Source: Kineothrix alysoides (lineage in GTDB: Bacteria; Bacillota; Clostridia; Lachnospirales; Lachnospiraceae). From it: 64,000 nt of DNA. A model generated the notes under the pieces. The model was not told the DNA's origin. It did no database searches and saw only the letters and a list, made by a program, of their open reading frames with translations. The stretch is from assembly GCF_000732725.1 (NCBI RefSeq), contig NZ_JPNB01000001.1, forward strand, positions 2,232,001 through 2,296,000, in the 5' to 3' direction. Each line of letters opens with the position of its first letter. Position 1 is the first letter of the stretch. This document shows positions 16,998-58,191 of the stretch, piece after piece. The position numbers and the translations under genes are program-made.

Positions 16998-17696
16998 CTA
17001 TTGAAAGACTACTCGGATATCATTAATCGTTAAACTTTCAATAGTATGGCAAAAATTATTTTTTTTTGAACAGACAGATAACTTATATTCTTTATCTATA
17101 GGATACTGCTTAAAATAAAATTCGGTATCGCTTGTTTCTTTTACCTTAAAACCATCTTCTGACTTAACAACAGAAAATTTATTGAGGGGCATAGAAAACC
17201 CTATTCCCAGCGCCTTAATGTATGCTTCCTTCAAAGACCAAATGTCATAGAAGCCTTGAAGTCTATCATTTACCTTTAAAGACAGCAAATAATCATTTTC
17301 CTCTTTGGTAAAAAAACGTTCCGCAATAGATAGTTCTATACTTTCAATTTCTTGTACATCTATACCCACAACAGAATTATTAATGACACAAACAACCCAA
17401 TCTCCGGAATGAGACACATTAAAATATATTTTACCGCATTCAGATACAAAAGGTTTCCCATATTCGTTCTCAGTAATTTTAATCTCATCATTCCTCAAAC
17501 CAAAGTTTTTTATAATTGCATACCTGGACAAGAGGCAGCCGAAAAGCGAACGCTGCCTGTCTTCCCAAAATCGATACCGCAGAATTCGTTCCTGATAATC
17601 CAAGTCTACCAACTTTAACAGTTCCTCATATAACGTGTCTGACAGGCGTATCCGACTGTTCACCGAATATATCTTCATACTGTGATTACCACTCAT
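16998..17696 (-). CDS. 4'-phosphopantetheinyl transferase (Sfp type)
   Basis: Transfers the phosphopantetheine arm of CoA to the serine of carrier-protein domains, here presumably the six ACP/PCP domains of the cluster megasynthases. It has 232 residues, the length typical for Sfp. Motifs are FNVSHSGDWVVCV, the Mg-binding GIDVQEIE, and WSLKEAYIKALGIGF with the catalytic Glu and Lys. Two starts are possible. The ATG at 17696 has no clear ribosome site, and an ATG six codons in (17678, MKIYSVNS) has GAGTGG upstream. It is the last gene of the cluster, followed by a terminator. A TATAAT-like box around 17728-17733 may give it some independent transcription. Confidence 0.93.
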   Translation of the reverse strand: MSGNHSMKIYSVNSRIRLSDTLYEELLKLVDLDYQERILRYRFWEDRQRSLFGCLLSRYAIIKNFGLRNDEIKITENEYGKPFVSECGKIYFNVSHSGDWVVCVINNSVVGIDVQEIESIELSIAERFFTKEENDYLLSLKVNDRLQGFYDIWSLKEAYIKALGIGFSMPLNKFSVVKSEDGFKVKETSDTEFYFKQYPIDKEYKLSVCSKKNNFCHTIESLTINDIRVVFQ

Positions 17697-17798
17697 TCAT
17701 AAATTATGCTTACCGCTTAGCATTATATTTTATGCTTTTGCAATGTAAGTACTTAGGAAAATTGTTCTATCGTTGTTTGGCGAAATAAAAATAATCAT

Positions 17799-18191
17799 TT
17801 AAGTTTCTCTTTTTACTACAAATAACTCTTGATTGTTTTTCACGAAATCTCCCTCATGAATATTAATGTCCCGTATGAATCCATCAACATTGGAACTTAT
17901 ACTTATCTCCATTTTCATGGATTCGAGGCTTGCTATTTTTTCTCCTTTTTTCACTATCTGTCCATTCTTAACAATGATATTCAGAATTTTTCCCTGCATC
18001 GGGCTGTAAATCGTTTCCGTATTATTATCATCGATAAAATGAAAATCCGGCAATATATCCTCCATTGATACTTCTTTTACCATATCGCTCATTTCTATAT
18101 TTTCTTTTTCAACCTCTGCTTCACAGCACACGCCATTGTCAGAAACATCAACACAATATTCTTTATCTCCCAAAACTATTCTATATTTCAT
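17799..18191 (-). CDS. Biotin carboxyl carrier protein (transcarboxylase 1.3S-like)
   Basis: Biotinylated carrier of 130 residues. The C-terminal biotinyl domain has YSPMQGKILNIIVKNGQ and the biotin-attachment motif ESMKMEI, with the target lysine at about residue 93. The N-terminal 55 residues resemble the short lead domain of oxaloacetate decarboxylase gamma or transcarboxylase 1.3S chains. I place the start at 18191 because AGGAG lies exactly eight bases upstream. The nominal GTG three codons earlier overlaps the ribosome site. It follows the 5S-like gene by about 50 bases. No biotin carboxylase gene accompanies it, so carboxyl transfer from a keto acid is more likely than ATP-dependent carboxylation. 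Confidence 0.92.
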   Translation of the reverse strand: MKYRIVLGDKEYCVDVSDNGVCCEAEVEKENIEMSDMVKEVSMEDILPDFHFIDDNNTETIYSPMQGKILNIIVKNGQIVKKGEKIASLESMKMEISISSNVDGFIRDINIHEGDFVKNNQELFVVKRET

Positions 18192-18242
18192 GTTTTCCAC
18201 TCCTTTACCCTCTTAATTTACAATAAAAAAAGAAGCCAAGAT

Positions 18243-19751
18243 TTATCTTCCAACCTCGTTCAGCGCATTTATAGTCAGTGCCTCCACGGATGACCGTGTT
18301 TTATATGCAATAATTGATAGGATAATTGCCATTATCTTCCCGTCTGTCTTGTCTAAAATATCATCCCCAATCAGGTCATCATCTTTTTGCATTTCACAAA
18401 TACTATAGAAATACTTATTATCCCTATCCTTAAAGAAATCACTTGCCAGAGCTGGAAACATTATCGATGTCAGGATATCACTCCTGCTGATTTCTGACAT
18501 CTTACATCTTTCCTTAACGGCCTCATAAGCCGGAGGAATTGTAACAGATAACCTTTTAGAAGAAAAACCGGTAGTATTCGCTAACTTATACATTAGATCT
18601 TGATTCACTTTTCCGGGAGGTATACCATATTCACCCCTGAAATATGATTTCACTTCATCAATAACTTGTTTATATCGTTCTCCTAACAGTACATTTATTG
18701 TTGCCTGAGTTCCTATCATCTGGCTAATCGGTGTCACTAAGGGCGGATAACCCAGATCCTTCCTTATTCTGATAACCTCATCCTCCACTTCGGATATTCT
18801 CTCTTCTGCATTCTGTATCCTTAACTGCGAAAGGAGATTCGAGTACATTCCGCCCGGAATTTGATTTTTAATCGTCCGGGGGTGTGTCATAAGGGTCTGA
18901 GGCAATAGTGTTCCTGCTTTTATTTCCGATTCCATTACTCTTTCAAAATGTTCGTTTATGAGCTGCACCCTATCTATATCTATGCTTACTTTTCTCCCTG
19001 ATTCCGTAGCTGTACGGCAAATCACCTCCGTCGCGGGCTGAGAGGTTCCCCCGGAAAAACTTGAGACAGCCGTATCTACTATATCAACACCTGCCTCAAT
19101 CGCCTTCAAATATGTCATATATGCATATCCTGTACTGCAATGGGAATGCAAAACAATGGGTACCCTGATACAACTTTTCAACTCTTTTATCAGCTCAAAT
19201 GCAACGGATGGCAATAATATTCCTGACATATCTTTAATACATACCGAATCTGCCCCCATATTTTCCATTTGCCTTGCCAATAAAATATAGTTATCAATGC
19301 TATGGACCGGACTGACTGTATAACAGATCGTACACGAAGCATGAGCCCCGTTCTTAATAGTTTCATTGACTGCAACTTCTATATTTCTGATATCATTCAT
19401 AGCATCAAATATACGTATGATATCTATCCCTTTTTCTATTGAATTATATACAAACTTTCGTACTACATCGTCAGAATAATGCCTATATCCCAATAAGCTC
19501 TGTCCCCTGAGCAGCATCTGCAATTTTGTATTAGGCATTTTCTTTCTTATGTATTTCAATCTTTCCCATGGATCTTCACGAAGATACCGAATACAGGAAT
19601 CGAAAACTGCACCTCCCCAACATTCCACCGAATAATATCCCGCCTGATCCATTTCCGGTAAAATATCTTCAAATTGATTCCTTGTCATTCTGGTTGCAAT
19701 CAGCGATTGATTGGCATCGCGCAAGACAGTTTCTGTTATTTTCAGCTCCAT
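18243..19751 (-). CDS. Oxaloacetate decarboxylase alpha / transcarboxylase 5S-like subunit
   Basis: A 502-residue protein of the HMGL-like TIM-barrel carboxyltransferase family with a PYC/OADA C-terminal domain. The metal site residues are D12 (TVLRDANQS) and the pair H202/H204 (LHSHCSTG). The carbamylated lysine is K173 (CIKDMSGILL). This barrel exchanges CO2 between oxaloacetate and biotin. The cluster also contains a biotinyl carrier and a 12S-like acyl-CoA carboxyltransferase, but no membrane OadB-type pump. The three together match methylmalonyl-CoA carboxytransferase of propionibacteria. The likely job is to make malonyl-CoA (or methylmalonyl-CoA) for the polyketide step at the expense of oxaloacetate rather than ATP. 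Confidence 0.9.
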   Translation of the reverse strand: MELKITETVLRDANQSLIATRMTRNQFEDILPEMDQAGYYSVECWGGAVFDSCIRYLREDPWERLKYIRKKMPNTKLQMLLRGQSLLGYRHYSDDVVRKFVYNSIEKGIDIIRIFDAMNDIRNIEVAVNETIKNGAHASCTICYTVSPVHSIDNYILLARQMENMGADSVCIKDMSGILLPSVAFELIKELKSCIRVPIVLHSHCSTGYAYMTYLKAIEAGVDIVDTAVSSFSGGTSQPATEVICRTATESGRKVSIDIDRVQLINEHFERVMESEIKAGTLLPQTLMTHPRTIKNQIPGGMYSNLLSQLRIQNAEERISEVEDEVIRIRKDLGYPPLVTPISQMIGTQATINVLLGERYKQVIDEVKSYFRGEYGIPPGKVNQDLMYKLANTTGFSSKRLSVTIPPAYEAVKERCKMSEISRSDILTSIMFPALASDFFKDRDNKYFYSICEMQKDDDLIGDDILDKTDGKIMAIILSIIAYKTRSSVEALTINALNEVGR

Positions 19752-19767
19752 TCAGACACCTCCAAAA

Positions 19768-21243
19768 TCATAAAGGAATATTACTGTGCTTTTTCAAAAT
19801 ACGATTCGTTTCTTTTTCTCTTTGCAAAGAACATAGATCATACGATATCCTATGACGGATTTCCTCCGGCCTTATCACATCGTCAACGTAACCGCAATTC
19901 AGCCCTTGCGTTGCATTCATATATTTCAGCTTATATTCTTCCATTTTATTTTGAAAAATATATTGATATTTCTCCCCGTCATCCTTACACTCTTTTAGCT
20001 CTTTTGCATATAATATTTCCGTCGCTCCTTCTGCTCCCATTACTGCGATTTCCGCACCTGGCAGCGCATACACATAATCCGCCCCCAAATGTTTGCTTCC
20101 CATCGCTATATACGCGCCGCCATATGCTTTCCTTACAACGATCGTAATCTTAATGCTTGTTGCTTCTGCATATGCAAACAGCAATTTAGCTCCATGTCTG
20201 ATAATTCCGTTATGTTCTTGTTCTAATCCCGGTAAATATCCCGGTGTATCCACAAATGTGATGACCGGAATATTAAATGAATCGCAAAAGCGTATGAATC
20301 TGGCTCCTTTATCACTTGAATCGCAATCCAAAGCACCCCCATTATTCATTGGCTGATTTGCTATGATCCCAACTGTTTCTCCGCATATTTGGGCAAATCC
20401 CACTACCAACGAGCCTGCATAATCCGTATGAATTTCAAAAAAACTGCTTGAATCAACACATTGCAAAAGCAGTTTTTTTATGTCATAAGGTATCTGAGGC
20501 TCTTTTGGCAACACTGGTTTCCAATCCACAGGTTGTCCCAGTAAAGAGATATCTGCTTTCTTAACACTTCCTCCATACCAGGAAGGAAGCATGTCGATCA
20601 AACTGCGCACTTTCTGAAAACACATCTTTTCACTGCTGCAAACTACATGCGCAACTCCTGAAACTCTGGAATGGACATTTGCACCGCCTAATTCTTCCGC
20701 CATACATATTTCACCCGTAATCTTTTCGATTACTTTAGGTCCGGTAATATACATATTACTAATTGAATTCACGCAGAAAATAAAATCACTGATTGCCGGA
20801 GAATAAGAAGCAGCTCCTGCACATGGCCCCAGCACCATGGAAAGCTGCGGTATGTATCCGGAAGCTCGCGTATTGGCATACATCATCTCCCCGCAGCCCG
20901 CCAAAGATTTTATTCCTTCGTTAATTCTCGCACCCCCGGAATCATAGATTCCAACGACCGGACATTTATTTTCAATAGCCATATTAATAATATGCGCTAT
21001 TTTTTCACCATGACAAAGTCCAATGGAGCCACCATGTATCGTAAAATCCTGAGAAAAGGAAAAAACACATTTTCCATTGACTAACCCTCTTCCTGTTATT
21101 ACACCATCATACTCGTATCTGCCTTTTTCATCTTTCCTATTGCCGCCGATTTCAAAAAATGTATCCCTGTCAAACAATAACTTCAAACGTTCTATCGCAT
21201 GATACTTCTTTTTCTCATGCTGCATTTGAATATTATAATCCAT
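19768..21243 (-). CDS. Acyl-CoA carboxyltransferase subunit (12S / PccB / MmdA-like)
   Basis: Carboxyltransferase of 491 residues that moves the carboxyl group from biotin to an acyl-CoA. It has two crotonase-like halves. The N-terminal half includes the oxyanion-hole loop YDSGGARINEG and FSQDFTIHGGSIG. The C-terminal half includes FVDTPGYLPGLEQEHNGIIRHG and AYGGAYIAMGSKHLGADY. Such subunits serve acetyl-, propionyl- or methylmalonyl-CoA, and I cannot read the acyl preference with certainty. It begins four bases after agrB ends, so signalling and precursor-supply genes share a transcript. With the 5S-like and biotin-carrier genes it forms a transcarboxylase-like trio. Confidence 0.92.
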   Translation of the reverse strand: MDYNIQMQHEKKKYHAIERLKLLFDRDTFFEIGGNRKDEKGRYEYDGVITGRGLVNGKCVFSFSQDFTIHGGSIGLCHGEKIAHIINMAIENKCPVVGIYDSGGARINEGIKSLAGCGEMMYANTRASGYIPQLSMVLGPCAGAASYSPAISDFIFCVNSISNMYITGPKVIEKITGEICMAEELGGANVHSRVSGVAHVVCSSEKMCFQKVRSLIDMLPSWYGGSVKKADISLLGQPVDWKPVLPKEPQIPYDIKKLLLQCVDSSSFFEIHTDYAGSLVVGFAQICGETVGIIANQPMNNGGALDCDSSDKGARFIRFCDSFNIPVITFVDTPGYLPGLEQEHNGIIRHGAKLLFAYAEATSIKITIVVRKAYGGAYIAMGSKHLGADYVYALPGAEIAVMGAEGATEILYAKELKECKDDGEKYQYIFQNKMEEYKLKYMNATQGLNCGYVDDVIRPEEIRHRISYDLCSLQREKETNRILKKHSNIPL

Positions 21244-21247
21244 GGTT

Positions 21248-21859
21248 TTATCCCCTCAGTTTTCTATGTACAAGGCCACCATATCCTTTTCTTTTTAAAT
21301 ACACAGCAAGTAAAGAAACCGCCTGTACAACATGTGCCATTACAATCACCAAACCAAATTTATTCATTTCAAAAAAGCAAAAAAATATGAGTGCCAAAAA
21401 TAATTCTATTATCAAAATGAATCGAATATATTTTTTATATGCTTGCTTTTCTTTATCGCTCAATTTTTTTGCATCGCTTTGTATTGGCGCCAAAAGTAAT
21501 ATGACAACAGCACAAATCACTTCTATGATAAGAACAGGCATATAACCCATAACTAAGTGGAATCCCTTGGCAACGAGTACGATAGCTGCTACAATTATGT
21601 TAGACAATATGATACATATCCATCCTTCAGAAGCATGATAACCGCCGCAATAACTTCTCAAAGGTATAAACATCATCAAAAACAGAGCTACACTTGTTAA
21701 TTCTCTCGAAATTAACCCAATTATTATAGCTATAATAATATTTATCATGACCTCTAACACCAGTGTATAACCGTACTGGTATACACTGGTGTCTTCTTCA
21801 GAAATCATTCCGTTTTCAATCTGTTTGTTAAGAATACAATGAACAACTTTTAAGATCAT
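21248..21859 (-). CDS. agrB: AgrB-type autoinducer peptide processing membrane protease
   Basis: Integral membrane cysteine protease of 203 residues that trims the AgrD C-terminus and closes its thiolactone ring. The catalytic pair is H75 and C82 in YHASEGWIC. The seven-residue spacing equals that of the His77/Cys84 pair known in the Staphylococcus enzyme. The arginine-containing RSYCGGYHA motif precedes it, and four or more hydrophobic segments surround it. Its ATG overlaps the agrD stop codon (TAATG), so translation is coupled. The order agrD-agrB is the reverse of staphylococcal agrBD. The kinase and regulator genes are not adjacent but lie about 34 kb upstream at the head of the cluster. 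Confidence 0.93.
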   Translation of the reverse strand: MILKVVHCILNKQIENGMISEEDTSVYQYGYTLVLEVMINIIIAIIIGLISRELTSVALFLMMFIPLRSYCGGYHASEGWICIILSNIIVAAIVLVAKGFHLVMGYMPVLIIEVICAVVILLLAPIQSDAKKLSDKEKQAYKKYIRFILIIELFLALIFFCFFEMNKFGLVIVMAHVVQAVSLLAVYLKRKGYGGLVHRKLRG

Positions 21860-22014
21860 TATTGAACCCTTTTAAACTTGTTTGCCGCTTCCGGAAATTC
21901 AGGTTGATGAAATGCCCAAATACAACATACATTTGCCGTATGTACTACCAGCATAAGCGCAAAGCAATTCATAACACCGAGCATTCTGCATACAACATTT
22001 TTTTTCGTTTTCAT
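21859..22014 (-). CDS. agrD: AgrD-type cyclic autoinducer peptide precursor
   Basis: A 51-residue pre-peptide. The N-terminal part is basic then hydrophobic (MKTKKNVVCRMLGVMN, then CFALMLVVHTA), the membrane anchor of AgrD proteins. The core is NVCCIWAFHQPEFPE, followed by the charged tail AANKFKRVQ. In clostridial AgrD the ring residues directly precede an HQPxxP motif; Clostridium perfringens has CLWFT before HQPEEP. By that alignment the ring here is Cys31-Ile-Trp-Ala-Phe35, with a possible exocyclic tail ending in Cys30. The ATG has GGAGG eight bases upstream, and the stop codon overlaps the agrB start. Upstream lies a promoter block shared with the main biosynthetic operon. Confidence 0.88.
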   Translation of the reverse strand: MKTKKNVVCRMLGVMNCFALMLVVHTANVCCIWAFHQPEFPEAANKFKRVQ

Positions 22015-22045
22015 ACAATATACCTCCATGCTTTTTTCGTCATTC

Positions 22046-22110
22046 TACATTTATCTGCATAAATATACAATGCTACTGGCAATTTTTGTAATTTGAAAGA
22101 CAGTTTTTGT
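22046..22110 (-). promoter_or_regulatory. Predicted LytTR operator/promoter of agrDB
   Basis: On the minus strand two direct repeats, ACAAAAACTG (22101-22110) and ACAAAAATTG (22080-22089), are 21 bp apart, two turns of the helix. Downstream lie GCCA, CATTGT and AGATAAATGTA (22046-22056). The same elements, in the same order and at the same distances, occur before the nitrilase gene at 55985-56049. LytTR regulators such as AgrA bind paired direct repeats of this kind. Core -35/-10 boxes are weak (TTGCCA, 17 bases, TGCAGA), which is usual for promoters that need the activator. Confidence 0.7.
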
Positions 22111-22160: not shown

Positions 22161-22838
22161 TTAACAAAACTTTACTGTGACCGTTCCATTTGATGTCTTC
22201 AAATCCATCTTTTTATCTCCGTATTTACAATCGTCAGGTATCTGTACGTTTGCATTCATTGTTTTTGCACGTACTTGAAAATCATCCGGAATTCCATAAA
22301 CCGTGCAATCAATTGATGCGTTAGAAGTCTTACATCTCATCTCCCCGTCAAAAAGAATTTTTTCAGCATTAATATATGCATTAAAGGTTTTAAGTGTAAT
22401 ATCGCTTTGGGAGATAACATTCATGATTCTGATAGGACCATTGTTCGTTTTTACAAATATACTGTTCGCCTTGCAATCATAAATGTCTACATTACTGTTA
22501 TTTGTTAGTAAATTTAAATTTCCTGTCACTCCTTTTTCAATATATATATTTTTATTCTTTGTTTTTATTTCAATATCCAGCAAATCATTCTCGGGTACTT
22601 TCAGAATCAGTTCTTTTGTCTCTCTGCCCCAGTTTAATATATGCCGGTGCCATTTAACTTTCTTCTTAATTTCTAGAATACCACTGTTTAACGAAGTGCT
22701 GTAGCTTTCTCCATCTTCATCATATAAATTAATATATATTTTGCTATCCGGAGACTGAAGTAGCCTGACCACAGTGTTAAAATCATGAACTGTAATTTTT
22801 TTCACATCATTTATTAAATAACTTTTAGTTTGATACAT
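22161..22838 (-). CDS. DUF4097-family beta-repeat protein
   Basis: A 225-residue protein made of short beta-strand repeats, for example DIEIKTKNKNIYIEKG, NLNLLTNNSNVDIYDCKA and MRCKTSNASIDCTV. This is the pattern of the DUF4097 putative-adhesin fold (right-handed beta-helix). No signal peptide or membrane segment is evident, so it is probably cytoplasmic or membrane-associated through the neighbouring transporter. DUF4097 genes are often found next to ABC transporters of the antimicrobial-peptide type. Here the gene ends a four-gene stretch with the ATPase and permease, with only 16 bases between. Its function is unknown, and a role in self-protection from the lipopeptide is an inference from position. 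Confidence 0.75.
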   Translation of the reverse strand: MYQTKSYLINDVKKITVHDFNTVVRLLQSPDSKIYINLYDEDGESYSTSLNSGILEIKKKVKWHRHILNWGRETKELILKVPENDLLDIEIKTKNKNIYIEKGVTGNLNLLTNNSNVDIYDCKANSIFVKTNNGPIRIMNVISQSDITLKTFNAYINAEKILFDGEMRCKTSNASIDCTVYGIPDDFQVRAKTMNANVQIPDDCKYGDKKMDLKTSNGTVTVKFC

Positions 22839-22854
22839 GGCTCCCCCTTATTTA

Positions 22855-23547
22855 TCATGCATTTAAAATGATACCATCCTTCATCGAAATAATTTTCTGT
22901 CCATATTCCGCTGCTTTATTTGAATGTGTGACCTGAATAATCGTTGTATTTTTTTCCTTATTAATTCTTCTAAACAAATCCATTATCTGTATTCCTGACT
23001 TGCTGTCCAGATTACCGATCGGTTCATCTGCCAAAATAATATCAGGATCGGTAATCAATGTGCGTGCTATCGCTACCCTCTGCTGCTGTCCGCCGGATAA
23101 TTCCCTGGGGGTAAAATCCTTTCTGTCAGTAAGTCCGACAAAGTTCAGAATGTCCTTTAATTTGTCCTGAAAGTTTAAAACTTTTTTACCATCCATAACA
23201 ATTGGTAATAATATATTTTCGCTGACGGTTAAATTCGGTATGAGATTATAAAATTGAAAAATAAACCCTAATTTATTCCGTCTGACCGATCCCTTTTCTT
23301 TATCTGTCATTTTTCCAAAGCTTTTTCCTTCGATCAATACCTCTCCGCTATTCGGTGTGTCAAGTCCTCCCAGAATATATAATAATGTGCTTTTTCCACA
23401 ACCGGAAGGACCCATAATAGAAATAAATTCTCCTTGTCCTACGGATAAATTCAGATTCTTTAAAATCTGAAATTCTTCTTTGCCTATCTGATACATCTTA
23501 CTGATCCCTCTGGCATCAATCGCTTTTTTATTTTCATTATTATTCAT
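22855..23547 (-). CDS. ABC transporter ATP-binding protein (MacB/LolD type)
   Basis: ATPase of 230 residues. Walker A is GPSGCGKST, the signature is LSGGQQQR, Walker B is [13 protein letters not shown], and the H-loop is VTHSNKA. The [17 protein letters not shown] segment is typical of the LolD/MacB/FtsE group that drives FtsX-like permeases. It overlaps the permease gene by eight bases. The system is more likely to act in export, resistance or envelope extraction than in uptake. Confidence 0.94.
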
Positions 23548-26005
23548 ACTTAAGCTCCTTTACAATATTCATTTCACCAATTTTTTTGATTGGACCTATA
23601 ACCGTCAGCGATAATATAATAAATATTGCAGCCATTATACCGATCATAATTGACGGATTCAGATTGAAATCAATGATAAGCCCCAATCCGTTTGTAAATT
23701 TAGGGATACTCATAACTATAGGTACGCTGAGCAGGACAATCGTAATTATTATTCCCACATATGAAGCAACGGTTTCCCATATGAGCATGCTCTTTAATTG
23801 ATGCATATCCATACACACACTATATAAAGTCGCAAATTCTTTTTTCCTCTGTATAAATGAAACGATCAGATTACTCGATATCCCGATAATGATCACGCAG
23901 CCGCATAAAATAACTGATGCTATTAATATTCCTAAAATGGTATTTACTGTCGCTACCTGCTGTGAAAGAAATTCTTCTGCTGTCATGACGGAAATATCTG
24001 TATCAACATAATCTTCCGCTATTTGGTCCGATATCATTTCCGGATTGGACTGCGTAATAGCAAGGATGCGTTCCGGAACTTCATCAAAGATTCTTTTATA
24101 ATTATCCAGACTGATACCGACAAACACCCTGTCTGTTGTTCCTTTGGAACAATCCCATATATCTGCAACAACAAAATCCGCAGCCTTAGTTGTTTTTTTG
24201 TCGTCGTAATAAAGCTTTATTTTATCCCCTACCTTGATGTTCTGGACACGGGCCCAATATTGATCTATGACAATTCCATTTTTTATCTTTGATAATTTGG
24301 CATCCAGATCCGTTCCGTTATAACGCAGTGCTTTCATATATTGATTAAGCTCAGAAAACTTATCTATTCCGTAAACTCTGCAATATCCGTTTGCATAATC
24401 TCCATATGCCATTACTTCATAGGATTCATATGCACCCGACACTCCCTGATAAGAAGCAATGTCCTCTTCGCTTACGTTCTCATCCCCATTCAATATGGCG
24501 ATCATATCAAAACCATAAGAATCCAAATCCATCTGCGCCGTGTTGGCAATCCCATTAATGATCGTTGCAATAATCATGAATATCATACTGATGACTACAA
24601 TCATACTGCTGTTATTTCTGATGAAACGATTATTTTTCAAATTATTGATACCTAATTCTGCGCTTCCGTTAAGCAGATGGGCTTTATTAAATAGTCCCAG
24701 TATTTTTACCAGTATAAACTGTACAAGAAATACCCCTCCTGCAATCAAAGCACTGATTCCAAGCAAGCCTATGATAAAATTATCCTTCTGGTTAAAAAAA
24801 TATAACAGCAGGCTAATTTCAAAGGCAACGATCGTCTTTGTCAAATAGTTACTTTTTCTTATTTCTTTACTGTCATCCACGCGTAATACTACATCTTTCA
24901 AGTTCTTCTTACTGACCCTTTTTACACTTACTAAAGCAACTGCAGGAGGGAGAAAAATACCGATGCCTGACGCGATAACGAAATACCATGTGTTAAAAGA
25001 AACGGCTGTCCTTACACCATATTCTTTATATTGATTAAATAAGTCCGCTACATAGGGCAGCCCTGCCATACCCGCAATAATACCGATCGCAGTTCCAATG
25101 AAACCATATGCCATGAATTCCATTAACAAAACCTTTTCTATTTTTACCTGATCCGTACCGATGCTCCTGAACGTTCCGATAATTGGGATTCTGTCTGTTA
25201 CAATGACTTCGGCAATTGACGATATGATATATCCGCCAACCAAAATTATTATACACAAAACAATCAGCATGGAACTGCTTACCGTCTGCATCTGAAAATG
25301 CAGATTATCATATTCCTCTCCGGCGGCTATTGACAAGTCTTTATTTTCTAATCTTAATTTTTCAACGGCATCCGTTGTATCTCCGGCGGCTTTCAATCTC
25401 AGCTTTGAAATCATATTTTCCGTCCCAAGAATTCCGTTTGCATCATCAAGGCTTATCAACAACTGAATATTTCCTTTTTCTTCATAAAAAGTTTTATTGC
25501 TTTCACCTATTGCGGCTACCGTAAATTCATGCGGTTGGGAATGAACGTATACCGTAACCGTATCACCGGTATTTAAGCGATACTCTTTCGATGTCTTTGC
25601 GCTTATAACGCATTCTCCTCTTTGAAGTTCCTTCACATTATTCAATAAATTGACGGAACCCATATTAATATATTCCTGTATATCTACCCCGCGTATATCT
25701 GCCTTTAAGCTCTTACCATTTGCTATAAATTTTCCATAAAGAGTCAGTATGCGTTCTATCTTTTCGACTGTAACTCCCCCGTAATTTACTTGATTTTCAT
25801 TAAAATCACTTTGACCTTCCATTGTTATATTCGCGTCGCCGATCGACGCACGATATACACTTTCATACGTTCCTTCCACTACCTGTTGTAAATTTAATGT
25901 AATAATAGAAACGCAGGAAGCCAATACCACAATGACGAGTACAATGGCGCTCCGTACCTTGTTTTCAAATATATTCCGAACTATATATTTCGATAATATT
26001 AACAC
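23540..26005 (-). CDS. FtsX-like ABC transporter permease (MacB-type, large)
   Basis: Permease of 821 residues. An N-terminal membrane segment (IVLVIVVLASCVSIITLNL) precedes a large MacB-like extracellular domain with LKADIRGVDIQEYINMGSVN. Then come three membrane segments around ISSIAEVIVTD-type FtsX sequence, further segments, a second extracellular domain and a final FtsX block. The double layout is that of the long permeases of antimicrobial-peptide transporters. It starts with GTG at 26005, supported by GGAGG seven bases upstream. The start overlaps the end of a 14-codon leader frame. In the cluster it is likely a self-resistance or export device for the lipopeptide. Confidence 0.9.
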   Translation of the reverse strand: MLILSKYIVRNIFENKVRSAIVLVIVVLASCVSIITLNLQQVVEGTYESVYRASIGDANITMEGQSDFNENQVNYGGVTVEKIERILTLYGKFIANGKSLKADIRGVDIQEYINMGSVNLLNNVKELQRGECVISAKTSKEYRLNTGDTVTVYVHSQPHEFTVAAIGESNKTFYEEKGNIQLLISLDDANGILGTENMISKLRLKAAGDTTDAVEKLRLENKDLSIAAGEEYDNLHFQMQTVSSSMLIVLCIIILVGGYIISSIAEVIVTDRIPIIGTFRSIGTDQVKIEKVLLMEFMAYGFIGTAIGIIAGMAGLPYVADLFNQYKEYGVRTAVSFNTWYFVIASGIGIFLPPAVALVSVKRVSKKNLKDVVLRVDDSKEIRKSNYLTKTIVAFEISLLLYFFNQKDNFIIGLLGISALIAGGVFLVQFILVKILGLFNKAHLLNGSAELGINNLKNNRFIRNNSSMIVVISMIFMIIATIINGIANTAQMDLDSYGFDMIAILNGDENVSEEDIASYQGVSGAYESYEVMAYGDYANGYCRVYGIDKFSELNQYMKALRYNGTDLDAKLSKIKNGIVIDQYWARVQNIKVGDKIKLYYDDKKTTKAADFVVADIWDCSKGTTDRVFVGISLDNYKRIFDEVPERILAITQSNPEMISDQIAEDYVDTDISVMTAEEFLSQQVATVNTILGILIASVILCGCVIIIGISSNLIVSFIQRKKEFATLYSVCMDMHQLKSMLIWETVASYVGIIITIVLLSVPIVMSIPKFTNGLGLIIDFNLNPSIMIGIMAAIFIILSLTVIGPIKKIGEMNIVKELKYE

Positions 26006-27373: not shown

Positions 27374-27399
27374 TTTATCCTCCAATTCATTCATTCGGT

Positions 27400-51241: not shown

Positions 51242-53281
51242 TTATTCTCCTGTTAAAATGAACTTGTGAATTTCTCCATAAACAGGAACCAGTTCAGGAA
51301 TAATACCCTTCTCAATTTCCTCTATCACTTTATTTTCTTGAATTCTCATATCTGCATCTAACGAAGGCCATTCAATCCGTATATCATTCATTCCTTCTTT
51401 TACAAACTTCTCACTTATATACACCTTTAATTTATTCCAGCCGCATACGATTTCACTCGAACTTATTTCATGTTCATTAATGAAAATTTTTATTTTCTTC
51501 GGGTTTTTATTTCCATTATTAACCTGGCAAACTAAATATAGATGAATACCCAAGGGGTTCCCTGTTGTAAATGCAAATCCGGTGTTTTTATTGTATGCTG
51601 CCAGGAAGCCATATCTTTTTAATTTTGCCGGGATAGAGGGCCAATTGTACTGTGCTTCTTTCTGCGACAACGAGTTTACATAATAATCCGAATCCAACAA
51701 ATTGACTTCTCCTCGTTCAATTCCGTAGGCACTATTCCTTACTTCCATAATATGCTTCAAGAGATTAGCATCATTTAAAACATCTCCAATAATATTTATC
51801 AATTTACGATCAAGCAGCAGACCTTTATTTTCGGTTAAGTACCGTTGCTCTTGTTCCGATATTATTCCTATATATCCCTCAGCTCTTTTACTCATCCAAA
51901 CCGGTAAGTTTCTGCACTGAAAATCAATGAATGCTTTCATTGTTTCTTTTATCTCCGGCCACTCCCTGAGTGCAGTTTCCAAGTGATATTTAATTATGTC
52001 TTCTTCCTGCCCCCAATGTGCATTATGTATTGCCGAAAGGAAATGTGCGTGACTTTCCGTACTTTTATCAACTATTAAGCCATTATATATGTTCGTGGAA
52101 ATATCTTGACTTAAAATAGAGCTTGCCACCTTCTGCATAAGCAGTTTTATGCCTTTTGATGTCAAATGGCAATAATCCATAAAAAATTCCCTGCCAATCA
52201 CACCGCCTTCACTGCTGAATACATCATGCATATCCACATATCGGATACGATCATTTTTACAGGCTTCATTTTTTAACGCTTTCTGTACCGCAGAAAATGC
52301 CCTGGGCGTACTAACCTTGGGATAAATCATAGTTATGTCTTTAATTTTAATAAAAATTTTTTCTGCTTGATCAACCATTCCCAAATGCTTGTAAGATTCT
52401 GCCAGAGCATACCAAAGTTCAGTACCTGCATATCCTTTGATTTCTTCTGATTCCAGCAATTTAATACAATTTTCATATTCTCCGGCCGCCATCATTGCTT
52501 TGGTTTTTTTCAAAAGCTGATTCCATCTGCCGCAGTCTCCGCCCATCAACCAGTTCGCAGCAATTTCCGGATCCTTCCAATCGTTCAGGTTGAACTCAGG
52601 TATGACGATCACTACCGGAATTCCCTTATCCGTAAAAGCCCTTAACTGTTTATACATCTTTTCAACATTGGCGGCTAAATGAGCATCGCTATACCGCAAT
52701 AATCCGTTCAGACCTTCTTCCCTGATCACTTCGCTGACTTCCAGATTATATTTTTCCCAGATTTTATGAATATCCCAGTTATTCCCGGCAAAAACGACCA
52801 GTACATCGGGTTCCAAAACGGCACTTTCCTCAATCAGGTTTATCAGCATATCGTAACTTAAGTCCGTTCGCGCAAGATCAACCACTTCATATTGACCCGC
52901 ATCCGCATTATTTAAAATACTGTTTAATTCCAAGGCAGGATTATATATAGGATCATAAAAATAGCCGCGTGCCGCAGATTCTCCAATCAATACAACTCTA
53001 TTTCTTCCCTTTTTTGGCGCAATACTCATATTTTTTGCCCAAAAATTAATTTCATCCAACTTACTCTGATCAACGGTAAAGCCTTCCGTATTGCCCTGCG
53101 CATCTCGCTGCCAGATACCGACCTTATCCGACTCTTCCGTTCTTTCTGCTTCTTCCTCATCTCTATAGTTTTGATTTAAATACATCAATGCAATATTTTT
53201 TAATATGCCTTTTTCATCTTTTTGAGCTAAACGGCTCAGTTGCTTCATATACTTTCTTTCCGTATTGCTTGGCCTGTGCAT
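51242..53281 (-). CDS. SGNH/GDSL hydrolase-family protein with TPR-like region
   Basis: About 680 residues. The SGNH blocks can be followed: block I GESAARGYFYDP, a catalytic region with VFAGNNWD (Asn block), and block V DYCHLTSKG with Asp and His. Between blocks there is a helical repeat portion (KAMMAAGEYENCIKLLESEE, then AESYKHLGMVDQAEKIF) that looks like one or two TPRs. The C-terminal 150 residues form a separate domain, perhaps beta-rich. Related proteins occur in polyketide/peptide clusters near carbamoyltransferases, with roles mostly unproved. The start at 53281 is taken from AAGGTGA five bases upstream. An esterase or acyltransferase acting on the lipopeptide is a reasonable guess. 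Confidence 0.75.
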   Translation of the reverse strand: MHRPSNTERKYMKQLSRLAQKDEKGILKNIALMYLNQNYRDEEEAERTEESDKVGIWQRDAQGNTEGFTVDQSKLDEINFWAKNMSIAPKKGRNRVVLIGESAARGYFYDPIYNPALELNSILNNADAGQYEVVDLARTDLSYDMLINLIEESAVLEPDVLVVFAGNNWDIHKIWEKYNLEVSEVIREEGLNGLLRYSDAHLAANVEKMYKQLRAFTDKGIPVVIVIPEFNLNDWKDPEIAANWLMGGDCGRWNQLLKKTKAMMAAGEYENCIKLLESEEIKGYAGTELWYALAESYKHLGMVDQAEKIFIKIKDITMIYPKVSTPRAFSAVQKALKNEACKNDRIRYVDMHDVFSSEGGVIGREFFMDYCHLTSKGIKLLMQKVASSILSQDISTNIYNGLIVDKSTESHAHFLSAIHNAHWGQEEDIIKYHLETALREWPEIKETMKAFIDFQCRNLPVWMSKRAEGYIGIISEQEQRYLTENKGLLLDRKLINIIGDVLNDANLLKHIMEVRNSAYGIERGEVNLLDSDYYVNSLSQKEAQYNWPSIPAKLKRYGFLAAYNKNTGFAFTTGNPLGIHLYLVCQVNNGNKNPKKIKIFINEHEISSSEIVCGWNKLKVYISEKFVKEGMNDIRIEWPSLDADMRIQENKVIEEIEKGIIPELVPVYGEIHKFILTGE

Positions 53282-53308
53282 GTTATTCACCTTCCCCTTT
53301 CACTTTAT

Positions 53309-55096
53309 TTATAGCAACGTATAAACCATACTGTTTACATTTGATTTTTTGATTTTTTCGCGTCCTGCAAAATATAACCATATTTCAGGAATATCTTCTT
53401 TGAGCAATATATAGTCTTCCAAAACAAGCACATCCATCTTCGATCTTATAAAGCATTTAATTGCATCAATAGGAGAACAGACAATAGGTTCTCCCCTCAT
53501 GTTAAAAGAAGTATTTAAAACAAGAGGGCATCCTGTTTTCTCATCAAATTTTTGAATCAATCTGGCATATCTGCCGTTATCCTCTTCCGTAACTGTCTGC
53601 AGACGGCCGGAACCATCTACGTGTGTTATCGCCGGTAATTCCAAATCCGACGTAACTTGGCAGGTCTCCAGCATATATGGAGACTCATAATCTATGCTGA
53701 AATGTTCCTGAACCTTGTGGCTTAATACGGAAGGAGCGAAAGGGCGAAAGCTTTCCCGCAGCTTAACCATGCCGTTAATTCTGTCTCGCATATCCTCTTT
53801 TCTGGGATCCGCTATTATGGATCTTGCGCCCAATGCTCTTGGCCCAAATTCCATTCTTCCATGAAACCAACCGATTACATTCCCGTCGACCAGCTTATCA
53901 CTGACATAATCAAGCATCTCCGCCTCCTTACTTCTGAAATCCAGATAATTAACAGATGCTTCATCCAAGATATTAAGTATATAATCTGAGGAATATTCCG
54001 GTCCGAGATATGCATTTTTAAGAGGCTGTATGTGTCCGCCGAATAATTTTTTGTAAATATATGCTGCTGCACCGATAGCTCCTCCCGCATCACCTGCCGC
54101 CGGCTGTACAAAAACATTCTTAAACGGACCATCCTTATGAAGTTTACCTACCGCCACACAATTAAGAGCTACTCCTCCTGCCAGACAGAGATTATTGCTC
54201 GGATGCTTTTTATAAATATACATGGCTTTTTCAAATAAAAGTTCTTCAATAACCACCTGAATACTTTTTGCCATATCCATATGGAATTGCAAAAGCTTGC
54301 TTTCGGGCGTCCGCCCTTTATATCCGAATAATTCTTCCATTTTTTCCGAGTACATGGCATCATCTGTAACATAGGAGAAATACTCATCTTTTAATTTGAA
54401 ACTGCCATCACGATGTTCTTCGATTATCTGATAAATTTTATCTACCTGATTTGCCTCGCCATATGGCGCAAGCCCCATTACTTTATACTCACCATCATTT
54501 ACTTCAAATCCAAGATAAGACGTGATTGCGCTATATAGAAGACCTATGGAATCCGGAAAATCTACACTTTCAAATATATTAATATCATCCCTGTCCGCAT
54601 AACCATATGTCATGCACTGCCACTCTCCTACGCCATCCACTGTCAGAATATCCGCGTCCTCATATCCTGAAAAATAAAATGAACTGGCACCGTGTGAAAG
54701 ATGATGTTTTATAAAATGTATATCTCCCTGATATCCCAATTTCTCATTGATTTCTCTTTCAAATTTTTTAGAATCGAGTAATATTCCCGCAATTCCCCTC
54801 ATTCTTTCACTGGAATTATTTTTTTGAAGCCCCATCCATATTTGTCTTGAAATCTTATCATATGGTTCTTCATAATATGCTAAAGCATCAACATCCTGCA
54901 CATCCACCCCTGCTGCTTCCAGACAATATCTAAAAGCATTTACCGGCGCCGAAGAATCATGTTTGATTCTTGTAAACCTTTCTTCCTGCGCCGAGGCAAC
55001 TAACTCCCCGTTTTTGATGATACAGCACGATGCATCATGATATCCAAATGAAACCCCTATAATCACATTTTCCTTTTTATCTGGTTTTGTACTCAT
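53309..55096 (-). CDS. NodU/CmcH-family O-carbamoyltransferase
   Basis: A 595-residue enzyme that moves a carbamoyl group from carbamoyl phosphate, through carbamoyl-AMP, to a hydroxyl of the product. The N-terminal Kae1-like domain has IIGVSFGYHDASCCIIKNG and HHLSHGASSFYFSG with metal-binding histidines. The nucleotide region has LAGGVALNCVAVGKL. The C-terminal carbamoyltransferase domain has GWFHGRMEFGPRALGARSI and LNTSFNMRGEPIV. All expected motifs are intact. It is the second gene of the biosynthetic operon, and AGGAG lies six bases before its ATG. The acceptor could be a hydroxyl on the acyl chain or a side chain. Confidence 0.93.
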   Translation of the reverse strand: MSTKPDKKENVIIGVSFGYHDASCCIIKNGELVASAQEERFTRIKHDSSAPVNAFRYCLEAAGVDVQDVDALAYYEEPYDKISRQIWMGLQKNNSSERMRGIAGILLDSKKFEREINEKLGYQGDIHFIKHHLSHGASSFYFSGYEDADILTVDGVGEWQCMTYGYADRDDINIFESVDFPDSIGLLYSAITSYLGFEVNDGEYKVMGLAPYGEANQVDKIYQIIEEHRDGSFKLKDEYFSYVTDDAMYSEKMEELFGYKGRTPESKLLQFHMDMAKSIQVVIEELLFEKAMYIYKKHPSNNLCLAGGVALNCVAVGKLHKDGPFKNVFVQPAAGDAGGAIGAAAYIYKKLFGGHIQPLKNAYLGPEYSSDYILNILDEASVNYLDFRSKEAEMLDYVSDKLVDGNVIGWFHGRMEFGPRALGARSIIADPRKEDMRDRINGMVKLRESFRPFAPSVLSHKVQEHFSIDYESPYMLETCQVTSDLELPAITHVDGSGRLQTVTEEDNGRYARLIQKFDEKTGCPLVLNTSFNMRGEPIVCSPIDAIKCFIRSKMDVLVLEDYILLKEDIPEIWLYFAGREKIKKSNVNSMVYTLL

Positions 55097-55154
55097 TTTT
55101 ATCTCCTCTCATAAGATATTCTTTCACTTTACGCTTCCAGCCCCGCATTATTTA

Positions 55155-55943
55155 TTATGTGATTTTCTCACTTAACAACCGACAGTATAAATCGTTCCTT
55201 CTGTCCCGTTTTATCGGAAATTTGTCTCTGTACACAGAAACATCGTCCTGTATTTCATAAATGAATACTCCATCACCGGACGACAAACATGTAAGAGCCT
55301 GTCCATCGGGCCCGAAAATTACGCTGTCTCCCGAATACACAGTATTATTCTGTATCCCTATACAATTAACACCTATCATATATACTTGGTTTTCAATAGC
55401 CCTGGCTCTCAGTAAGGTCAGCCAATGTTCCCGCCTCTCCTTTGGCCAGTTTGCCGGAACCACAATAAAATGAGCAGAATTTGAAGCATACTGGAACAGT
55501 TCCGGGAAACGTAAATCATAGCAAATAAATGTGGCCAAAAAAATATCATTAACTTTTCCTACTTTTATATGTTCGCCGCCAATATAATATAAATTTTCAT
55601 TGGAATAAGAAAAAGGATGTATTTTTACATAATCATGAACAATTTCACCTTCCGGACTCATGATTGAATAATGATTCTCTCCCTTGCTGTCGTGCTTTCC
55701 TACCCAACCGAAGCCCACATTAATTTGATAATTTTCCGCATAACTTCTAACACTGTCAAAAATAACTTTTTTGTACTCATATACCTTGTTTACATTCATA
55801 GAAAACCCGGTAAAACTCATTTCAGGAAAAAGAGCAAGTTCTGCCTCTTCTCTTTTTGCTTTTAGCAATAATTGTTCTGCATTCTTTAGGTTTTCTTCTA
55901 TCTTTTCAAATTCTATATTTAATTGGCATAATGCTATTTTCAT
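55155..55943 (-). CDS. Carbon-nitrogen hydrolase, omega-amidase-like (nitrilase family)
   Basis: Nitrilase-fold amidase of 262 residues with the triad Glu41 (FPEMSFTG), Lys107 (VKIHPF) and Cys141 (FICYDLRFPELF). The short length and the YDLRFPE context are those of omega-amidase/YafV-type enzymes. These hydrolyse 2-oxoglutaramate, the waste product of glutamine-dependent transaminases. The megasynthase aminotransferase probably uses glutamine, so this enzyme could remove its by-product and pull amination forward. That is an inference. The start at 55943 is chosen for GAGGG seven bases upstream. An upstream start would run into the promoter block. It is the first gene of the main operon. Confidence 0.87.
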   Translation of the reverse strand: MKIALCQLNIEFEKIEENLKNAEQLLLKAKREEAELALFPEMSFTGFSMNVNKVYEYKKVIFDSVRSYAENYQINVGFGWVGKHDSKGENHYSIMSPEGEIVHDYVKIHPFSYSNENLYYIGGEHIKVGKVNDIFLATFICYDLRFPELFQYASNSAHFIVVPANWPKERREHWLTLLRARAIENQVYMIGVNCIGIQNNTVYSGDSVIFGPDGQALTCLSSGDGVFIYEIQDDVSVYRDKFPIKRDRRNDLYCRLLSEKIT

Positions 55944-55984
55944 ATATATACCCTCGTTTGTATGCCTTGTCCTTTTGGGTATTT

Positions 55985-56049
55985 TACATTTATCTATATT
56001 ATTCGACAATGGAGTTGGCGGTTTTTGTAATTTGAGAGGTTATTTTTGC
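55985..56049 (-). promoter_or_regulatory. Predicted LytTR operator/promoter of the main biosynthetic operon
   Basis: On the minus strand GCAAAAATAA (56040-56049) and ACAAAAACCG (56019-56028) are direct repeats 21 bp apart. Then come GCCA, CATTGT and AGATAAATGTA (55985-55995). The repeat-to-block distance of 34 bases equals that before agrD (22046-22110), and the intervening GCCA and CATTGT also align exactly. The core reads CCGCCA, 17 bases, TATAGA, a weak promoter that would need activation. It begins three bases after the terminator of the kinase gene. Confidence 0.72.
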
Positions 56050-56051
56050 AT

Positions 56052-56090
56052 AAAAAAGGATATATATGCTTGCATTACGCATATATATCC
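56052..56090 (-). terminator. Intrinsic terminator of the regulator-kinase operon
   Basis: GGATATATATGC (56058-56069) and GCATATATATCC (56079-56090) form a perfect 12-bp stem with a 9-base loop, followed on the minus strand by six uridines (56052-56057). It lies 28 bases after the kinase stop codon and insulates the biosynthetic promoter from read-through. Confidence 0.88.
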
Positions 56091-56117
56091 ATTCCAGTTT
56101 ACTTTTATAATATCTGT

Positions 56118-57434
56118 TTACTTTATAGGCAAGACTAATATTGCCGTAAATATATCTCCTTCAACAAAACATTCTAAATATCCGTTATACTTCCCGGCAG
56201 TATTTTGTACACTTTGAATACCGATTCCATGAATCTCTTTTTCTTTTTTAGTAGAAACAAAACCACCTTTACTCCTAATAATTTCTCCCGCAAAATTGTT
56301 GGTTATTTTTACTACACAAAAGCCTCCTTCATTTTGCATAAAAATGCGGGTTCTAACATAATGTTCTTTCTCCCCTTGCTGTGCCGCCACAATTGCATTG
56401 TCCAATAAATTTCCTAGCATAGTTATCAAATCCGCATCAGAAACAATATCCGCAAGAGCCCCCGGCTCAACATATATATCAAAGAGAACTCCCACCTTAT
56501 TTGCCTGGGACTCTTTCTCATTTAAAATAGCATTCATAACATGATTTTCACTATATATATTCATTGTATTATTCTCCAATTCTACATGTAATTCTCGAAG
56601 AATATCCAATATGCTTGCATTTTCATTTTTTCTTGCAAGTTCTCCTATCGTCTTTAAATAATGACTTGTATTATGAATAAATTCCTTGTACTTTTCATTG
56701 ATTTCCTGTATTTGATTATAATAGCTTAAATCTGCATCCTGTCTGATTATTATCAACTCTTGTCTCATACTTAAAGACATTTCTTCTGAATATCGGTTAA
56801 ATGCATAGAATATCAGAATGTTTCCAAGTAACATGAGAGCAAAACATGCTGACATAATAACTTTCATCAACGGCCGCTCACTAAAATCTATGCTCGAATA
56901 ATAAGTAAGCAGCATAATACATAAACTTGCTATAGGAACACATAAGTACATTATAAATATTTTGTTATCCATACGATTTCTGGACTTATTGGAAAACTGC
57001 TTTATTATAACGACCAAAATATATGTCAACAGTTTCATGGCAAGCACCTGCCAGGGAATTTCCGATAAGCTAATTATACTCGTCTGTTCTAAAAAATAAG
57101 ACGGTATCTCCAACAATACAACAAATAAAAACTCACAACCCAAAAATATCGAAAATAAAATAATATAATATACCAGCCTATTACCAATACCAGCAGAAAA
57201 CAAAAGACTGGCATATATCCAAAACAGTATTAATGCACCAAACAAATTCGCATATGCATTTACCATCAAATTAAGCCCAAACAGAGAACCTGCAATTATA
57301 AGACTTAAAAAAACAACTTTTCCATATTTCTTAAAAGCTTCTCTCCGCTCAAAAAAATTATCAAAAAAATCAAAAAGTATATAAACTTCTATAATACAAC
57401 TTAACAATAAAACGGCTTTATCCAAATATTCCAT
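56118..57434 (-). CDS. AgrC-like sensor histidine kinase
   Basis: Membrane sensor kinase of 438 residues. The N-terminal 200 residues have about six hydrophobic segments, the usual AgrC receptor layout for cyclic peptides. The phospho-acceptor region contains His254 and His258 (IHNTSHYLKTIGELARK). The C-terminal GHKL ATPase has an N-box in LGNLLDNAIVAAQQ and a shortened GIGIQSV G-box. Its cognate signal is most likely the AgrD peptide encoded in the same cluster. It is 16 bases downstream of the LytTR regulator and followed by a strong terminator. Starting at 57434 is supported by GAGG five bases upstream. Confidence 0.9.
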   Translation of the reverse strand: MEYLDKAVLLLSCIIEVYILFDFFDNFFERREAFKKYGKVVFLSLIIAGSLFGLNLMVNAYANLFGALILFWIYASLLFSAGIGNRLVYYIILFSIFLGCEFLFVVLLEIPSYFLEQTSIISLSEIPWQVLAMKLLTYILVVIIKQFSNKSRNRMDNKIFIMYLCVPIASLCIMLLTYYSSIDFSERPLMKVIMSACFALMLLGNILIFYAFNRYSEEMSLSMRQELIIIRQDADLSYYNQIQEINEKYKEFIHNTSHYLKTIGELARKNENASILDILRELHVELENNTMNIYSENHVMNAILNEKESQANKVGVLFDIYVEPGALADIVSDADLITMLGNLLDNAIVAAQQGEKEHYVRTRIFMQNEGGFCVVKITNNFAGEIIRSKGGFVSTKKEKEIHGIGIQSVQNTAGKYNGYLECFVEGDIFTAILVLPIK

Positions 57435-57450
57435 ATCATCCTCATATATC

Positions 57451-58191
57451 TCAATATTTTTTAGCCATACTTTTAGCTAATTCCATTCTCAGTTCCTTCT
57501 CTTTTGAACGGGCAATCGATAAGATTGTACCATCGGTCAACTCCAGTTCCGTTATTGTTTTTCTCTTGATATATCTCAAATTCACAATATAACTGTTGTG
57601 AGCATATGCAAAGCCGTAATCTTTTAACACGCAATATAATTCGTCAACTCGTTCTTTACATGTTATACTGCTTTCAAAATCATATTTTTTAATATTAGGA
57701 CAAATATATATACTGCTGCCATTTTTGGCAATCGCTATATATAATATTTCCTGCGGTTTTAATTTTACAGTGTTATAATACCAGTTCCCAACAATATACG
57801 GTTCCTCTTTCCGCTCTTTCATCTCTTTTATAATTATTCTCATTTCCTGATTTATGCGGGCATCCGTATAGCTTTTCAACAAATAGCGAAATGGAGCCGA
57901 TTCAAAACATTCCACTGTAGGCCGGCACACACCTGAACAAAACACTAAAATTGATGTAGGAAAACTTTTTCTGAATTGCTTAGCTGTCTCATTTCCATCT
58001 AATTGTCTCATCTGCATATCCAGTATCAGTAAATCGACATTTTCTTGTGCTGTACATCCTTCTATTAGTTCCTCTCCTGAATAATATTCATGGAAAAAAA
58101 CCTCATTTTCATTCAACTCACAATTTAAAATCATCCTTTTCACATACTGCACAAACCTCTTATCGTCATCGCAAATTGCTACATGGTACAT
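57451..58191 (-). CDS. LytTR-family response regulator (AgrA-like)
   Basis: Response regulator of 246 residues. The receiver has the acidic pair CDDD near residue 8 and the phospho-accepting Asp58 in LLILDMQM. The C-terminal LytTR DNA-binding domain (about 145-240) has YYNTVKLKPQEILYIAIAKNGSSIYI and YAHNSYIVNLRYIKR, which are typical. A strong GGAGGGGG ribosome site precedes the ATG. It heads a two-gene operon with the kinase. The paired 21-bp-spaced repeats before the biosynthetic operon and before agrD are its likely binding sites. Confidence 0.93.
   Translation of the reverse strand: MYHVAICDDDKRFVQYVKRMILNCELNENEVFFHEYYSGEELIEGCTAQENVDLLILDMQMRQLDGNETAKQFRKSFPTSILVFCSGVCRPTVECFESAPFRYLLKSYTDARINQEMRIIIKEMKERKEEPYIVGNWYYNTVKLKPQEILYIAIAKNGSSIYICPNIKKYDFESSITCKERVDELYCVLKDYGFAYAHNSYIVNLRYIKRKTITELELTDGTILSIARSKEKELRMELAKSMAKKY

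Follow-up and report, generated by a model that had tools for sequence, protein, structure and literature searches.

In Kineothrix alysoides, a run of 22 tightly packed genes, one of them broken, occupies about 41 kb of the minus strand (58191 to 16998) of the stretch analyzed here (64,000 nucleotides of contig NZ_JPNB01000001.1, hereafter the window). Judged from sequence, the full run is on balance best explained as a one-operon pathway for a short lipopeptide. With a probability of about 0.32, part of it constitutes a portable cassette (an AsnB-like amidotransferase, an Asp/Glu racemase, and an adenylation domain with a D[AP]RH code, sometimes together with a carbamoyltransferase, CarbT, and an SGNH-type protein) that gives otherwise unrelated nonribosomal peptides, from Clostridia, Bacilli, and Actinomycetes, a side-chain-linked residue resembling isoasparagine. 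In the window, the cassette would act within an Agr-switched beta-amino lipo-tripeptide of an anaerobe possessing its own malonyl-making transcarboxylase. If true, this would define a chemical target of three residues and a beta-amino cap, yield a testable rule by which, in two phyla, an amidotransferase goes with an adenylation code, and place a quorum peptide and a malonyl-making enzyme within an assembly-line operon.

Adenylation code, amidotransferase, and racemase

Three neighboring genes form the core of the putative cassette (A, adenylation domain; C, condensation domain; PCP, peptidyl carrier protein; TE, thioesterase):

28708..33609, minus strand: second nonribosomal peptide synthetase (NRPS), 1633 aa, A2-PCP-C(HHxxxDA)-A3-PCP, no TE
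33622..35484, minus strand: AsnB-like glutamine-dependent amidotransferase with an MCGI start (PF00733, PF13537; TIGR01536 above cut-off)
35767..36279, minus strand: Asp/Glu racemase with one in-frame stop (PF01177; positions 1-151 of 225 in the CuyB model)

Specificity codes were read by alignment, with positions placed manually according to GrsA numbering: DGTITAEVV in A1 (located in the hybrid synthase described below), DPRHLAMMI in A2, and DMWTVAAIC in A3. By code tables, A1 is presumably Tyr-like and A3 aromatic-like. The presence of Arg at position 239 suggests that A2 binds a carboxylate. This residue was found in 10 of 182 code rows (179 from fetched loci, some of them overlapping, and three window seeds), and His278 accompanies it in 10/10 of those. 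The ten rows derive from six clusters: the window, Viridibacillus, an Alkaliphilus metagenome-assembled genome, Streptomyces NBC_01431 (two domains), Streptomyces NBC_01216, and Kitasatospora NBC_00039. All six encode an AsnB that is 42-58% identical to the one in the window (which is itself among the six), and a D[AP]RH domain is present in six of the seven clusters having this AsnB subfamily. Among 79 loci with an aminotransferase domain of the MycA type (AMT), 59 yielded one or more A domains. This AsnB is missing from 56 of the 59, and D[AP]RH occurs in none of those 56 loci (0/114 rows).

A search of 72,556 plasmid records at a threshold of 1e-100 finds this AsnB in three. Each of the three has a D[AP]RH code nearby, and two have a racemase beside AsnB. 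For the former, a background rate set at its upper 95% value (2.6% per row) gives a chance of 0.0008, or 0.011 when NBC_01431, the source of the idea, is left aside. A plasmid search with the A2 domain returned 89 records, all with identity below 60%. The plasmids of Streptomyces NBC_01431 and NBC_01216 and of Kitasatospora NBC_00039 resemble the window in combining AsnB with D[AP]RH domains. The CarbT-SGNH pair recurs in NBC_01431, CarbT in Kitasatospora, and the racemase in NBC_01216 and Kitasatospora, whereas no AMT synthase is annotated in the stretches read and the NRPS and tailoring genes are different. On the NBC_01431 plasmid (L142:8171-13905), asnB, the carbamoyltransferase gene, and the SGNH-like gene are consecutive, with two D[AP]RH domains and a gene for lysine 2,3-aminomutase close by.

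With the racemase and the amidotransferase encoded close to A2, the leading candidate for the A2 residue, again at a probability of about 0.32, is isoasparagine or its D form. A2 would take an Asp/Glu-like acid via its side-chain carboxylate, and the AsnB-like enzyme would amidate the other carboxylate. ACV synthetase presumably offers a precedent, with a similar code start and aminoadipate taken by the side-chain carboxylate. Microcystin synthetases load iso-linked D-Glu and D-MeAsp; we take D[AP]RH-like codes to be tied to side-chain-linked acids there as well, and a search of two microcystin papers turned up no D[AP]RH string. The RacD/AsnH pair provides a parallel in peptidoglycan. According to an excerpt of one microcystin paper, MeAsp is linked by its beta-carboxyl, and the accepting C domain groups with L-donor domains and lacks HHxxxDG. 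In the excerpted description of zeamine, the first C domain of Zmn16 has HHxxxDA, like the window's C domain behind A2 (PMC3547906).

Several observations weigh against this part of the proposed pathway. The seventh AsnB cluster, from Methylobacter, has no D[AP]RH domain in its 40-kb contig. With equal flanks (AMT loci as fetched), the link is weak (1/3 versus 0/56, p 0.05), and a p of 0.0018 (2/3) is biased, AsnB clusters having been given longer stretches. Searched against the PDB, AsnB scores highest with a hydroxyamidotransferase (7ylz, 189 bits), ahead of asparagine synthetase B (1ct9, 162 bits). The racemase, located between the two synthases, is broken by a single in-frame stop, beyond which the frame continues toward AsnB. 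Zeamine Zmn16 contains DPRHLALLAK, and the gene table in the excerpt lists no AsnB (PMC3547906). Published labels, as far as the excerpts go, differ, with DPRHLALLAK being Aad by prediction (PMC3547906) and DPRHVSLLAK Asn. Finally, the C domain after D[AP]RH lacks an HH motif in Alkaliphilus, and in Streptomyces NBC_01431 it reads HHxxxDG. HHxxxDA was accordingly rejected as a rule for such C domains and kept as a hint; it occurs in 6/181 C/E domains scanned, including those following D[AP]RH in the window and Viridibacillus.

A plainer role for the amidotransferase is considerably less probable than the proposed pathway: A2 would take L-Asn (or Asp) via the alpha-carboxylate, AsnB would boost the Asn supply, and the product would be beta-amino-acyl-D-Tyr-Asn-aromatic. 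Asn and Tyr are both present in iturins, AsnB scores above the TIGR01536 cut-off and keeps its MCGI start, and DPRHVSLLAK is tied to Asn-activating domains in one paper, available in part. Yet the genome encodes other AsnB-type proteins elsewhere, and the racemase beside AsnB would be left unexplained in four clusters (the window, Viridibacillus, NBC_01216, and Kitasatospora). Moreover, three other iturin-like relatives (L044, L045, and L052) show DLTKIGEVG, which we take to be an Asn-type code.

It is unlikely that AsnB caps the released chain as an amide or a hydroxamate, the A2 substrate being unrelated. The hydroxyamidotransferase match and an assembly line ending without a TE domain fit such a role, whereas the co-occurrence of AsnB with D[AP]RH domains in 6/7 clusters, from Bacillota and Actinomycetota, speaks against it.

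Assembly line and proposed pathway

The remaining genes of the run were assigned with Pfam and NCBIfam models (FAAL, the ligase domain that would load the fatty acid; ACP, acyl carrier protein; KS, ketosynthase; E, epimerization domain):

57451..58191, minus strand: AgrA-like response regulator of the LytTR type, opening the run (PF00072, PF04397)
56118..57434, minus strand: GHKL histidine kinase, AgrC-like, 16 bp from the regulator gene (PF14501)
55155..56009, minus strand: carbon-nitrogen hydrolase, questionably omega-amidase-like in role (PF00795)
53309..55096, minus strand: NodU/TobZ-type carbamoyltransferase, CarbT (PF02543, PF16861)
51242..53290, minus strand: SGNH-type protein with a GESAARG motif and a TPR-like middle (weak Pfam SGNH match, 20.8 bits, below the cut-off of 27)
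50484..51239, minus strand: type II TE (PF00975)
49558..50487, minus strand: malonyl acyltransferase (AT) as a separate gene (trans-AT), GHSIG motif (PF00698)
36291..49574, minus strand: hybrid synthase, 4427 aa, FAAL-ACP-KS-ACP-AMT-C-PCP-C-A1-PCP-E-C (DCL type)
27400..28698, minus strand: divergent stand-alone C domain (CHIIFDA), possible release enzyme (PF00668, 82 bits)
26102..27394, minus strand: MFS exporter (PF07690)
23540..26005, minus strand: ABC exporter permease, FtsX type (PF02687)
22855..23547, minus strand: ABC exporter ATPase (PF00005)
22161..22838, minus strand: DUF4097/LiaG-like protein (PF13349)
21859..22014, minus strand: AgrD precursor peptide, 51 aa (TIGR04223, 38.7 bits, cut-off 19)
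21248..21859, minus strand: AgrB processing protein (PF04647)
19768..21243, minus strand: biotin-dependent carboxyltransferase, 12S-like (PF01039)
18243..19751, minus strand: OadA/5S-like carboxyltransferase subunit (PF00682, PF02436; NF006761 above cut-off)
17799..18200, minus strand: biotin carrier protein (BCCP), ESMKM motif (PF00364)
16998..17696, minus strand: 4'-phosphopantetheinyl transferase (PPTase; PF01648)

Neighboring genes overlap by at most 17 bp or are separated by at most 146 bp, except for 282 bp behind the broken racemase. In two scanned stretches (15900-28800 and 49500-59100), promoter-like sites number 59 versus 55.3 expected and 58 versus 39.4 expected; terminator-like sites are at or below chance (3 versus 6.9 and 3 versus 5.3 expected).

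The 4427-aa protein contains FAAL, KS, a class-III aminotransferase, four carrier domains, four PF00668 domains, and one amino-acid A domain. The KS motifs (CSS, HGTGT, and NIGH) are kept. The AMT, positioned behind KS and before C, is of the MycA type: it aligns over its full length to the solved AMT domain of MycA (PDB ID: 6kfm, 541 bits) and is 55-57% identical to three relatives. Motifs, and a tree built from two C-like proteins and 18 domains of the C and E types, resolve the PF00668 domains into three C and one E. The first clusters with the C domains behind the AMT in BamA and Viridibacillus, the third falls among E domains, and the fourth joins BamB C domains located after E. The C domain behind A2 (HHxxxDA) groups with LCL-type domains. 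The 1633-aa NRPS comprises two A, two PCP, and one C domain, PCP being the last, so that the line ends without TE. In profile comparisons, the stand-alone C protein matches C domains of known structure (best E 1e-14).

An earlier note, made from the window alone, had named these genes on a single strand, and the models confirm this at the span given above. Its MycA-like hybrid synthase is borne out by the domain order and the 6kfm match, its separate acyltransferase by PF00698 and GHSIG, and its count of three adenylation domains by one in the synthase and two in the second NRPS. NRPS genes elsewhere in the genome, which the note regarded as potentially refuting, were not found above the PF00668 cut-off: of seven matches in the genome, six exceed it, all inside the run, and the seventh (contig 2, 25 bits) falls below. 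Extension of the peptide by such genes was therefore rejected. Given three amino-acid A domains and no further condensation domain above the cut-off, the best reading of the product would be a beta-amino-acyl tripeptide.

The domain identities are computed, and every later step of the pathway is our inference. A fatty acid would be loaded by FAAL, and KS would add two carbons from the malonyl unit provided by AT. The resulting beta-keto group would be converted to a beta-amine by AMT, a chemistry modeled on MycA. The residues would follow in the order A1 (predicted Tyr, turned to D by the E domain), A2 (isoasparagine-like), and A3 (predicted aromatic). The chain would probably be released by either the type II TE or the stand-alone C protein. 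A carbamoyl-type group would be contributed by CarbT and the SGNH protein, the transcarboxylase would form malonyl-CoA from oxaloacetate and acetyl-CoA, and AgrBD with the kinase/regulator pair would turn the operon on at high cell density.

Carbamoylation, considered likely in the earlier note, gains from the PDB matches of CarbT, which indicate an O-carbamoylating kind: novobiocin carbamoyltransferase (332 bits) is followed by GdmN and TobZ. CarbT is 52% identical to its Streptomyces NBC_01431 counterpart, and an SGNH-type gene adjoins the carbamoyltransferase gene in both. Among 398 phylum genomes, the SGNH protein found only its own copy at 1e-15. The carbon-nitrogen hydrolase has PRK10438 as its best NCBIfam match (123 bits, below the cut-off of 249) and matches PDB 3p8k (122 bits) and Nit2 (2w1v, 58 bits); it might clear alpha-ketoglutaramate left by a glutamine-using AMT.

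Near the end of the run, the transcarboxylase set comprises 12S-, 5S-, and 1.3S-like subunits with no membrane beta subunit (OadB) alongside, and the three OadB matches of the genome all lie outside the run. A sodium-pumping decarboxylase was rejected because the run lacks OadB; the biotin genes are predicted to form a soluble transcarboxylase supplying malonyl-CoA from acetyl-CoA and oxaloacetate. A further carboxyltransferase, a BCCP, and a 237-aa protein are encoded next to the genome's other OadA.

The run contains every one of the four types of Agr gene: the kinase and regulator genes at its head, and AgrB and AgrD, which overlap by one base, within it. The set was thus rightly called complete in the earlier note, where AgrD was only implied; it can now be placed as the 51-aa open reading frame. 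From this gene content, the operon is predicted to be quorum-controlled by its own Agr set, with feedback on the operon likely. No COX1 match was found in the genome, which encodes a rubrerythrin, and the host looks like an anaerobe. To our knowledge, few lipopeptides come from strict anaerobes.

Comparison with known systems and the sister cluster

Members of the iturin family (MycA, BamA) likewise have an AT gene ahead of a FAAL-ACP-KS-ACP-AMT-C-PCP-C-A synthase. The window synthase is 34.5% identical to BamA over 3934 columns, and AMT and the post-AMT C domain group together. After A1, the window synthase has an E domain and a DCL-type C, which BamA lacks; in the iturin family, the first module is for Asn without E and an LCL-type C ends synthase A, whereas the window has a Tyr-like first residue. 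The iturin family has seven adenylation domains and a C-terminal TE that closes the ring, in contrast to three A domains and no terminal TE in the window. The run adds AsnB, CarbT, SGNH, transcarboxylase, and Agr genes. Zeamine of Serratia plymuthica RVH1 shares, according to the excerpt, a DPRHLALLAK domain with an HHxxxDA C domain behind it, a C-N hydrolase, a stand-alone C protein, and a MycA-like aminotransferase; it differs in its PUFA-synthase polyamine chain and in the absence of AsnB from the excerpted table (PMC3547906). Further sources, each available in part, are PMC12283262, PMC2174460, PMC2564945, PMC7214866, PMC13291983, and PMC9177418.

A sister cluster is located on contig 3 of Viridibacillus soli. 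It shares the core order AT-synthase-AsnB-NRPS2-C-like-MFS-ABC, and its synthase (4600 aa) has an identical domain order. Identities to the window are 58% for AsnB, 42% for NRPS2, 30% for the C-like protein, 40% for MFS, 61% and 23% for the ABC ATPase and permease, and 33% for AT. The codes DGTITVEVI, DPRHLALMI, and DAWTVAAVC match those of the window at 7, 8, and 7 of 9 positions, and each C/E domain pairs with the same-position domain in the C/E tree. The Viridibacillus TE and PPTase genes sit on the opposite strand. Intact CarbT, SGNH, and racemase genes are absent, as are Agr and transcarboxylase matches in the stretches read. Between the TE and AT genes, a 2.3-kb stretch retains a CarbT remnant (CarbT residues 12-45, 59%, E 9e-12), followed by an SGNH remnant (residues 660-680, 57%, E 5e-4); ahead of AsnB lies a fragment of the racemase gene with a shifted frame. 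Since remnants of all three genes persist, they seem to have been present in the common ancestor of the two clusters. Loss of the racemase seems to be tolerated in both lines, as the Viridibacillus copy decayed as well as the window's.

A decaying cluster with no product is the least likely of the explanations considered: the stop in the racemase, the missing TE domain, and the lack of a KS-to-AMT match among those listed for the other 15 same-genus genomes would fit, whereas the other 21 genes are open, the KS, AT, and C/E motifs are intact, and the Viridibacillus cluster lost its racemase too while retaining the core.

The claim of the earlier note that no characterized cluster has this gene set fits the open-licence literature searched, in which no title listed concerned the window operon or the Viridibacillus cluster; the sister cluster nevertheless exists, uncharacterized as far as the searches show. 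The iturin plan had been described as known from Bacillus, a restriction that does not hold. A genome scan with the AMT alignment confirmed at least 560 relatives, with 79 loci kept from many phyla; synthases with a MycA-type AMT are also encoded by cyanobacteria, Bacteroidota, Pseudomonadota, Streptomyces, and two further genomes from the class to which the window belongs, and a plan peculiar to Bacillus was rejected. Among the relatives listed, the Viridibacillus soli AMT is the closest (64%); that of a Paenibacillus plasmid shares 63%. In a tree of 31 AMT domains (the window, the Paenibacillus plasmid, and 29 hand-picked from the 79 loci), these three group with a support of 0.95, together with a long-branched Chitinophagales sequence that is the window's nearest neighbor there.

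Within the genus, none of the matches listed for the other 15 genomes spans KS to AMT; they correspond to single parts (KS/FabF-like, class-III aminotransferase, ligase, or C). Across 397 family genomes (at most two candidates scored per genome), the longest foreign matches listed run from about residue 4 to 1175, i.e., from the ligase to KS. Four others of 398 phylum genomes pass 1e-120, two covering the whole KS-to-C query, and 14 others of 391 class genomes pass 1e-150. Two of the latter (L155-L157 and L158) extend into AMT-C and encode further AT, FAAL-KS, and AMT-C synthases. From these sequence comparisons, the operon looks to have been gained by the K. alysoides lineage, and other members of the class do encode beta-amino synthases, if rarely. 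The A codes in the first of the two class genomes (L155-L157) are DGFFLGVVY, DAWTIAAIC, and DTESIGSVC, with no AsnB match.

Contig 3 of the K. alysoides genome (L041:4292-15968) carries a second FAAL-ACP gene with 2-hydroxyglutaryl-CoA dehydratase-type, BadF/BcrA-type, methyltransferase, and ABC-type genes, which may together encode a further pathway of the lipid type. Adjoining the head of the operon, three large serine recombinase genes lie in tandem (58996-63958), near a 20-nt direct repeat (90%) at 58927 and 58991; together they may mark the edge of a mobile element.

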